From Hymenobacter jeollabukensis (GTDB lineage: Bacteria; Bacteroidota; Bacteroidia; Cytophagales; Hymenobacteraceae): a DNA stretch of 64,000 nt. The stretch lies in the NCBI RefSeq assembly GCF_005771675.1, contig NZ_VAJM01000003.1, positions 558,001 to 622,000 of the forward strand. The letters are read 5' to 3'. The notes below the pieces were generated by a model. The model was given only the letters and a program-made list of their open reading frames with translations, did no database searches and was not told the origin of the DNA. A program made the position numbers and the translations under genes. This document shows positions 60,782 to 61,336 of this stretch, piece after piece (within the stretch, counting starts at the first letter, position 1; the number at the start of each line of letters is the position of its first letter).

Positions 60782-60875
60782 GATGAGGCTGAGAAAGAGG
60801 GTTGTGGACGTCGAAAACGATGCAAGGAGGCCGCACGACGGCCAAAACGCCGCGTGCGCCGAAGGGGGCCGCGCA

Positions 60876-60902
60876 GCACCCGGAGCAGCTCCAAACGGGT
60901 GC
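60876..60902 (-). promoter_or_regulatory. Stem-loop in the metY leader
   Basis: GCACCCG (60876-60882) pairs with CGGGTGC (60896-60902), and GGAG/CTCC pairs inside. It lies between the poly-Cys leader ORF and metY. There is no T-run, so it is not an ordinary terminator. Confidence 0.4.
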
Positions 60903-60961
60903 GGCTAAGCCACGCGCCACCCGGTGAGCGGGCAGCAGACAGGAAAACGGGGAAGGGTGGG

Positions 60962-60982
60962 GGCGGGCATCAGCGACCCGCC
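60962..60982 (-). promoter_or_regulatory. Hairpin directly after the poly-Cys leader ORF
   Basis: GGCGGG (60962-60967) pairs with CCCGCC (60977-60982) around nine bases. On the minus strand it begins seven bases after the stop codon of the leader ORF, within reach of a ribosome stalled on the Cys codons. Another possible stem, 60984-60988 with 61018-61022, would enclose the Cys codons. Confidence 0.45.
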
Positions 60983-60989
60983 GGGCGCA

Positions 60990-61139
60990 CTACCAACAAC
61001 AGCAACAACACATCATAGCGCCGCGCACCAGCTGCGGGCGCATTCGGGCGCATTCGGCGGCTACGGACAAACCGGTAGCGGGCGCCGCTGCGGGAAGCGG
61101 TGACAAATGATGGTCGGACGTGAGGGGGTAGTGGCTCAT
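60990..61139 (-). CDS. Poly-cysteine leader peptide of the met operon
   Basis: On the minus strand, ATG at 61139 opens a 49-codon frame that ends Arg-Gly-Ala-Met-Met, then five consecutive Cys codons, Trp and TAG (60990-60992). Shorter starts are ATG 61043 (17 residues, beginning Met-Arg-Pro-Gln-Leu-Val) and the double Met at 61116 and 61113 (eight or seven residues). The frame lies between the SAM-I riboswitch and metY, with a hairpin seven bases after its stop. Five Cys codons in a row are very rare by chance. Poly-Cys leader ORFs that sense Cys-tRNA are known upstream of sulfur genes in mycobacteria. I infer an analogous cysteine-responsive leader peptide; translation has not been shown. 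The frame extends upstream through the riboswitch, but that part is not credible as protein. Confidence 0.65.
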   Translation of the reverse strand: MSHYPLTSDHHLSPLPAAAPATGLSVAAECARMRPQLVRGAMMCCCCCW

Positions 61140-61148
61140 GGCACGCGG

Positions 61149-61267
61149 TTTATTTTTCCCCTTCCTGAGTTGGTCAGTGGGGCAGGATTTGGCACCTGCC
61201 AGCTTGTGCATTGCTGGTGGTTGCCAGAGGGTCACGGAGCCTAGTCTCTCGCCTCTTCGGAATAAAT
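61149..61267 (-). promoter_or_regulatory. SAM-I riboswitch of the met operon
   Basis: On the minus strand the core reads AGAGGCGAGAGACTAGGCTC, then GTGACCCTCTGGCAACC, a CCAGC/GCTGG hairpin, then CAGGTGCCAAATCCTGC. These are the conserved SAM-I elements: the P2 stem with kink-turn, GGCAACC, P3, GGTGCCAA-TCC and P4 (TCCTG with CAGGA). The closing helix pairs TTTATTCC (near 61267) with GGAAAAATAAA (61149-61159). High SAM should lower expression of metY-metX-hom. The leader-ORF ATG (61139) follows only ten bases after the closing helix. No standard terminator hairpin with T-run follows the aptamer. Confidence 0.93.
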
Positions 61268-61305
61268 GCGTCAAAAAAATCCTGCGCCGGTAGCGGCAGG
61301 TGGCA

Positions 61306-61336
61306 CAAAGGTAGTACCGGTTATGTAAAACGCAAA
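61306..61336 (-). promoter_or_regulatory. Promoter of the met operon
   Basis: On the minus strand TTTG (61333-61336), 19 bases, then TACCTTTG (61306-61313) match the Bacteroidota promoter exactly. Transcription should begin near 61300, about 35 bases before the riboswitch aptamer. Confidence 0.85.

Follow-up and report, generated by a model that had tools for sequence, protein, structure and literature searches.

A predicted SAM-I riboswitch followed by a cysteine-codon leader peptide upstream of metY-metX-hom in Hymenobacter and related Bacteroidota

The leader upstream of metY-metX-hom

The window analyzed here is a 64,000-nt stretch of the Hymenobacter jeollabukensis genome (contig NZ_VAJM01000003.1), and its minus strand carries a long leader followed by metY, metX and hom (Table 1). 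An earlier note on this DNA had claimed, in this order, a promoter of the form TTTG-N19-TACCTTTG, a SAM-I aptamer, an ORF that ends with Met-Met, five consecutive Cys codons, Trp and a stop at 60990, a hairpin seven bases past that stop, and the three genes. All of these elements were found as described, with a qualification for metX: the models for metY and hom score above their cut-offs, and TIGR01392 MetX is the best NCBIfam match of the gene between them although it stays under its cut-off. The start of metX was placed at MSSNPQ by choice; the stretch searched began one codon earlier.

Table 1 Features of the leader and the downstream genes in the window
Feature	Coordinates	Strand	Basis
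Promoter-like pair: TTTG (61336-61333), 19 nt, TACCTTTG (61313-61306)	61306..61336	-	Read directly
SAM-I (S-box) riboswitch aptamer, predicted	61147..61268	-	cmscan, RF00162
Leader peptide ORF, 49 codons and TAG, MSHYPLTSDHHLSPLPAAAPATGLSVAAECARMRPQLVRGAMMCCCCCW	60990..61139	-	ATG at +8 behind the aptamer
Five Cys codons (TGT TGT TGC TGT TGT), then Trp and stop	60996..61010	-	Read directly
Hairpin GGCGGG-loop-CCCGCC, 7 nt past the leader stop, no T-run behind it	60962..60982	-	Read directly
C-rich, G-poor tract past the leader, possible Rho loading site (inferred)	60938..60967	-	Kept in eight genus metY leaders
metY, O-acetylhomoserine sulfhydrylase	59393..60781	-	PF01053; TIGR01326, 671 bits (cut-off 495)
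metX, homoserine O-acetyltransferase-like	58177..59211	-	Abhydrolase_1; TIGR01392, 347 bits (below the cut-off of 500)
hom, homoserine dehydrogenase	56922..58199	-	PF00742; NF004976, 296 bits (cut-off 205)

The promoter-like pair fits the Bacteroidota promoter consensus TAnnTTTG, which is named in PMC9723704. Of 77 metY loci (from the best 80 of 587 relatives plus the window, as described below), 60 have this consensus in the 70 nt that precede the aptamer, compared with none of 77 control windows. The aptamer, 122 nt long, is a member of SAM-I by its covariance-model score (cmscan with RF00162, 62.3 bits where the cut-off is 44.4, E = 4.5e-12, full model 1-108), and it is one of four SAM-I elements in the 6.18-Mb host genome. 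Directly behind its P1 helix there is neither a terminator nor the start of the gene itself but the start codon of a leader peptide. The leader ORF likely starts at ATG 61139, which gives 49 amino acids, rather than using the longer stop-to-stop frame, and it ends with the tail MMCCCCCW and a stop codon at 60992-60990, with ATG ATG immediately before the Cys run. This ATG lies about 167 nt past the promoter-like site, and 208 nt separate the leader stop from the start of metY. The CCCCCW tail and an equal start place are found in the seven other metY leaders of the genus, and in an alignment of the genus metY leaders the hairpin past the stop is kept despite sequence changes.

Runs of four TGY codons as such are common in the host genome (271 matches), and therefore the claim of a leader is built on place, frame and conservation. 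We inspected 17 regions with TGY runs in the host genome, chosen from the places listed. One of them is the known permease leader described below, and in the other 16 every run is overlapped by a long reading frame of 232-533 aa, either in a different frame or on the opposite strand, so that these regions gave no SAM-I-free poly-Cys leader. The closest look-alike, L251 (L-numbers are labels of the individual loci compared), which has CCCCCW and a stop, was rejected as a lipoprotein signal peptide in another frame.

Conservation of the Cys tail and the genes that carry it

For the conservation analysis, we used 80 metY relatives from named Bacteroidota genomes together with the window; because the best 80 of 587 were kept, this sample leans to close relatives. 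By the Rfam search, 76 of the 80 relatives have a SAM-I element ahead of metY, which makes 77 loci including the window, and none was found there in L028, L029, L035 and L069 of the best-80-of-587 set. When ORFs were sought up to 460 nt behind the aptamer, with only ATG as a start in this metY set, 68 of the 77 loci had a best ORF with at least three Cys among its final 12 residues, and 63 had one with at least four (best 80 of 587 plus the window). The mean number of Cys in these 12 residues is 5.2 over the 77 loci, compared with 1.6 in dinucleotide shuffles, and the five Cys of the window leader were reached by none of 60 dinucleotide shuffles. The Cys tail is absent from nine of the 77 SAM-I metY leaders. 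An in-frame ATG was sought in L049 and none was found, which makes it the tenth locus without a complete Cys-tailed leader; it was dropped from the 68 for this reason, and the later counts use 67 leaders. The test asked for in the earlier note, whether a Cys-tailed ORF is conserved between the aptamer and the first gene in relatives, is thus clearly positive in this sample.

The composition of the 67 leaders (best 80 of 587 plus the window) changes sharply toward the stop codon: the tails, taken as the last 14 residues, are 41.9% Cys and 11.0% Met, and the bodies are 1.3% Cys and 1.0% Met. Read in the other two frames, the tail stretch would encode 11.4% and 1.3% Cys, with Met at 0.5% and 0.4%. 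Across the 42 non-Hymenobacter leaders (from the best 80 of 587), the final 42 nt contain 58 ATG triplets in frame compared with four and two in the other frames. This enrichment of ATG, confined to the leader frame, implies that Met is selected as a codon too, and Met is present in 63 of the 67 tails. Cys forms the C terminus of 45 of the 67 leaders, and the spacing of the Cys residues is variable (CCCCC, CCCCACCC, CMCCCC).

The lengths of the 67 leaders vary from 31 to 60 aa, implying that the frame is maintained across large length changes. Of the 63 leaders with at least four Cys (best 80 of 587 plus the window), 62 can be read without interruption from the first ATG past the aptamer into the tail; in the sole exception, L051, it is the second ATG that is in frame. 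The leader bodies of 15 related, overlapping pairs differ by 103, 103 and 129 changes at the three codon positions, a small third-position excess, and in the same pairs Cys codons changed to those of other residues more often (17) than to synonymous ones (11). Because the codon-position evidence of protein-level selection is weak, the case for the leader is made from its frame, start place and tail. Judging from these sequence features, it is almost certain that a functional leader reading Cys and Met codons lies behind SAM-I. A different tail was seen in L184 (Bacteroidia genome G053), in which the metY leader begins 9 nt behind SAM-I and ends with MRMRMPMSCFSYMCA, Met-rich rather than Cys-rich, as if it were tuned to Met-tRNA.

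The four SAM-I elements of the host genome precede metY, cysH, an amino-acid permease gene and metH. The leader of cysH (PAPS reductase) has the tail GCCCCCMPMRRACC and a GTG start at +11, the permease leader has the tail PHCCCCC and a GTG at +10, and metH has no leader, the gene itself beginning at +71 behind the aptamer. The eight genus genomes contain 35 SAM-I matches (the genes behind L268-L272 were assigned by a motif check). A Cys-tailed leader that starts within 16 nt is present for metY (8/8), cysH (7/7), permease (8/8) and ATP-grasp (4/4) genes, that is, in 27 of the 27 SAM-I elements before these genes, and for none of the eight metH elements in the same genomes. This split between sulfur genes and metH further backs the proposal of the earlier note that SAM and Cys are both sensed. 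By domain search, the permease is of the AA_permease_2 family and the ATP-grasp protein, for which the search was made on L139, is RimK-like. The RimK-like ATP-grasp gene lies behind SAM-I and a Cys leader in L139 (2008-3000) and also in L134, L138, L190 and L272, and its product is a candidate Cys-using ligase. A GTG at +10 to +13 is the start codon of all 20 leaders found ahead of cysH, permease and ATP-grasp genes (L002, L003, L115-L118, L122-L125, L127, L128, L132-L134, L137-L139, L190, L272), as opposed to ATG in the metY leaders.

The distribution was also followed in a wider set of 140 SAM-I loci, whose genes were sorted by short hand-typed motifs, with 13 left unsorted. The phylum sample comprised 110 loci among the matches listed, made up of 30 given loci and 80 chosen ones; the latter were the listed places of the order and class and a part of the rest. 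Among the matches listed in the 140-locus set, the leader is present before 7/7 cysH, 8/8 permease and 4/4 ATP-grasp genes and before none of 29 metH, 13 metX and five metY genes of another type, nor before other PLP genes (0/5 and 0/4) or the unsorted genes (0/13). The metY genes of the window's type have it in 8 of 52 cases, which divide, among the matches listed, into 4/4 in the genus, 4/8 in the rest of the order and class, and 0/40 outside the class.

RNA between the leader and metY

Terminator-like hairpins between the leader stop and metY occur in 5 of the 67 loci (best 80 of 587 plus the window), with 3.6 expected by shuffling, and a consensus terminator scan gave none in L040 or L057. 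In the window stretch, the consensus scan made three calls, two upstream of the aptamer (61395-61380 and 61298-61285) and a third over the Cys codons (61024-61005), and none behind the leader. Intrinsic termination as a general read-out was rejected from these results, and the leaders thus lack, beyond the number expected, the intrinsic terminator between leader and gene that marks a classical attenuator. The hairpin of the window is not an intrinsic terminator either, because a C-rich tract rather than a T-run comes next.

In 21 high-GC loci (20 Hymenobacter including the window, and one Cesiribacter; best 80 of 587 plus the window), the pyrimidine fraction reaches 0.87 at 20-30 nt past the stop, and the tract is not evident in 46 low-GC loci from the best 80 of 587, five Hymenobacter among them. 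Over all 67 leaders (best 80 of 587 plus the window), pyrimidine runs past the stop exceed those of shuffles (p < 0.05) in 15%, and in the leader bodies the figure is 16%. A Rho site as a feature of all loci was rejected because the tract is clear solely in the high-GC group, and it was retained for Hymenobacter. Since no intrinsic terminator was found and the C-rich tract past the leader is conserved, a Rho-dependent read-out is probable in Hymenobacter; for Rho read-out as such, we would call the chances even. The leader stop lies at least 81 nt upstream of metY in the Cys-tailed loci (best 80 of 587 plus the window), which makes simple overlap coupling unlikely.

Pairing of the Cys codons with downstream RNA is weakly above shuffles over all loci (mean z of -0.62; best 80 of 587 plus the window). 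It is clear in one clade of 11 loci, in which a conserved AGCAAC-type segment downstream matches the Cys codons and is followed by a covarying hairpin. The group alignments gave no downstream structure common to all clades, and the clade-specific pairing and hairpin suggest that the read-out may differ between clades.

A hairpin with a GUGAC loop was seen at L057 2385-2436 and also in L052, L054, L066, L068, L070, L071, L074, L076, L078 and L082. Its loop is invariant in the 11 loci, GTGAC lies 46-65 nt past the beginning of the leader stop codon, and both-side changes are found in 5 of 11 pairs. Among the loci searched, it is confined to one clade around Chryseolinea and relatives. A model built from these 11 loci, R1, recovers its 11 among 95 sources together with weak extras in L034 (E = 0.51, in a fitting place), L041, L077 and L022, and it gave no match in 149 class genomes, a weak test with no known positive among them. 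The GUGAC-hairpin loci gave no Rfam match above cut-off, and for L076, judged by E-value, there were just two chance-level matches.

Proposed coupling of the SAM and cysteine sensors

The start codon of the leader has a narrow range of positions relative to the aptamer. Counted from the final base matched by the Rfam model, 67 of the 68 Cys-tailed leaders have an in-frame ATG at 2-15 nt, and the offset is 8-10 nt in 51 of 67 (best 80 of 587 plus the window). According to the structure line of the SAM-I model, the 3' strand of P1 is formed by the last eight model positions, and offsets of 8-10 nt put this strand at about -8 to -17 relative to the AUG. Positions -8 to -17 are inside the usual footprint of an initiating ribosome. 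Taken from position alone, P1 would occlude the leader start region; in the window P1, two end pairs are non-standard. A leader start right behind the aptamer suggests that the SAM and Cys sensors are coupled in series, beyond mere adjacency, and the start of the leader peptide is likely to be the expression platform of the riboswitch. We lean toward the view that SAM gates initiation on the leader.

We hold it reasonably probable that the leader works in two stages and senses SAM, then Cys (and Met). When SAM is plentiful, P1 of the aptamer would close with its 3' strand just upstream of the leader AUG, the leader would stay untranslated, and transcription would end early on the untranslated RNA (OFF). 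At low SAM, P1 would open and ribosomes would translate the leader. With charged Cys-tRNA (and Met-tRNA), the ribosome would then reach the stop and release, and the bare RNA behind it would be terminated (OFF). With the tRNA uncharged, the ribosome would stall at the stop-proximal Cys codons and change or cover the RNA just downstream, and transcription would proceed into metY-metX-hom (ON). The signs of the two inputs, OFF at high SAM and ON at low Cys, were taken because they fit the pathway; that low Cys means ON seems quite likely to us, and the genes would probably switch on only when SAM and cysteine are both scarce. More tentatively, the leader may be a serial gate for three signals (SAM, Met-tRNA and Cys-tRNA), in which the initiation site of an attenuator peptide serves as the expression platform of a riboswitch, SAM would decide whether the tRNA sensor gets read at all, and the arrangement would be old in Cytophagales and Sphingobacteriales.

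If this is true, the leader would represent a natural AND gate of wide distribution, in which two textbook RNA devices, the riboswitch and the attenuator peptide, are connected one after the other, and Bacteroidota would gain a testable amino-acid attenuator. Sulfur-import genes would read the end product SAM together with the sulfur amino acids, and metH, which only methylates homocysteine, would read SAM alone. The system has natural controls built in, namely the Algoriphagus and Spirosoma loci that lack the Cys tail and the metH elements that lack the leader.

Alternatively, SAM-I and the Cys leader could be two independent modules in series, with SAM-I having an expression platform of its own and the close start codon reflecting a compact leader. 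This would agree with the metH elements, which have SAM-I without a Cys leader, and with the ten metY loci (best 80 of 587 plus the window) that keep SAM-I without a Cys-tailed leader behind the aptamer. However, the start codon is near-fixed, as seen in the 51 of 67 leaders above, and the GTG-started cysH, permease and ATP-grasp leaders also begin close to the aptamer, at 10-13 nt. Even the ten metY loci without a Cys-tailed leader ORF retain an ATG 9-14 nt past the aptamer; the short ORFs there include some with Met and Cys (such as L049 and L056) and others with almost none (L053, L073). We thus consider independent modules unlikely.

Coupled sensors could also operate with the opposite sign or by reinitiation, such that full translation of the leader favors metY and a Cys shortage turns it off. 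The sign adopted here is drawn from the fit to the pathway, and in M. tuberculosis ppe2 the downstream gene does need translation of a riboswitch-controlled uORF (PMC11260477). In ppe2 the uORF overlaps the gene, whereas the leader stop is at least 81 nt from metY in the Cys-tailed loci (best 80 of 587 plus the window), and mycobacterial poly-Cys leaders are titled cysteine-responsive attenuators (Canestrari 2020); both argue against the opposite sign, which we find improbable. It is very improbable that translation is limited to a mini-ORF beginning with the Met that directly precedes the Cys run: although ATG ATG precedes the run in the window and Met precedes Cys in many tails, Cys codons stand ahead of that Met in several leaders (such as CICMCCCC in L075 and L080, CCMCICC in L038), and in 62 of 63 leaders (best 80 of 587 plus the window) no stop interrupts the frame between the aptamer-proximal ATG and the tail. 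The least credible reading is that the Cys-rich peptide, while being made, responds to a metal or to redox state and not to the charging of tRNA, in the manner of CruR, which detects copper while its uORF product is still nascent, by means of a CXXC motif (PMC9426467). Against this reading, the downstream genes here are those of sulfur assimilation, the Cys spacing varies freely, Met is enriched alongside Cys, and the tails directly adjoin the stop, with Cys as the final codon in 45 of 67 leaders (best 80 of 587 plus the window), which would leave little peptide outside the ribosome.

The SAM-I aptamer and the poly-Cys leader, which we propose to act in series, are each of a known kind, and no description of their combination was recognized among the papers listed in the literature search, most subscription journals being outside the search. 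Mycobacterial leaderless poly-Cys ORFs are reportedly cysteine-responsive attenuators, going by the title of Canestrari 2020 as cited in PMC9094748 and PMC13236596. Poly-Cys leader ORFs were predicted for mycobacterial cys operons with no conserved intrinsic terminator, and Rho with poly-pyrimidine sites was proposed there as a weak prediction (PMC1262725). The window shares with them a Cys run near the stop, sulfur genes downstream, and the lack of a conserved intrinsic terminator. They belong to another phylum, and the available portions of PMC1262725 make no mention of a riboswitch, whereas the ORF here is preceded by a 122-nt aptamer. The title of Canestrari 2020 calls the mycobacterial ORFs leaderless, which the window ORF is not by its predicted position, and Met enrichment is a feature of the leaders described here. 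What characterizes a leader-peptide attenuator, a short upstream ORF in which codons for the regulated amino acid form a run, is found in 68 of 77 loci, with the first ATG in frame in 62 of 63 (best 80 of 587 plus the window).

The uORFC-8-2 motif before cysS of Rhodobacterales likewise has tandem Cys codons in a short upstream ORF, but differs in its terminal U-run, which is consistent with an intrinsic terminator, in its tRNA synthetase target, and in having no riboswitch in the portions of the source available (PMC8632094). The Salmonella mgtCBR, mgtA/mgtL and corA/corL leaders share the principle of two signals per leader RNA, one of them read via the codons of a short ORF, and a Rho read-out in some; their signals are ATP or Mg2+ and proline, with no SAM-type metabolite aptamer in the available portions of the sources (PMC3641672, PMC11552253), and those of mgtCBR act independently and additively (PMC3641672). 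For the B12 riboswitch of ppe2, the ligand-bound form is proposed to mask the uORF start region, as we propose for SAM-I, but the overlapping uORF is needed via termination-reinitiation, and the portions of the source available describe no amino-acid sensor codons (PMC11260477). A uORF stop overlapping or abutting the gene start, as in ppe2, is not seen here, the distance being 208 nt in the window and at least 81 nt in the Cys-tailed loci (best 80 of 587 plus the window). In S. meliloti metA, a SAM riboswitch also masks a Shine-Dalgarno sequence upstream of a met gene, with termination in the leader, but it is of the SAM-II class, the start is the in-frame AUG2 of metA, and the available portions of the source describe no leader peptide with sensor codons (PMC9373788). 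Within Bacteroidota, leader-peptide attenuation is mentioned in general terms for Flavobacterium psychrophilum (PMC9723704) and Bacteroides thetaiotaomicron (PMC7366714); PMC4833913, in its available portions, has no bearing on Cys.

The tree of the 81 metY proteins (best 80 of 587 plus the window) contains 67 with SAM-I and the Cys leader, 10 with SAM-I only and 4 without SAM-I. The leader label is clustered on this tree, with 8 changes compared with a shuffled mean of 13.0, and SAM-I with the Cys leader occurs on both sides of the midpoint root, which was set for drawing only. The clustering and the occurrence on both sides suggest that losses of the leader in Algoriphagus, Spirosoma and relatives are likely. 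The gap between the Cys leader and metY is about 580-970 nt in 10 loci (L020, L022, L024, L026, L027, L044, L052, L054, L066, L079), and the two long gaps examined hold thiol-related genes, AhpC/TSA-like in L020 (1771-2139) and OsmC-like in L052 (2000-2437). In Belliella, a DUF805 RNA motif (RF03081, 73.3 bits) lies at L049 1201-1268, about 0.9 kb upstream of the metY SAM-I.
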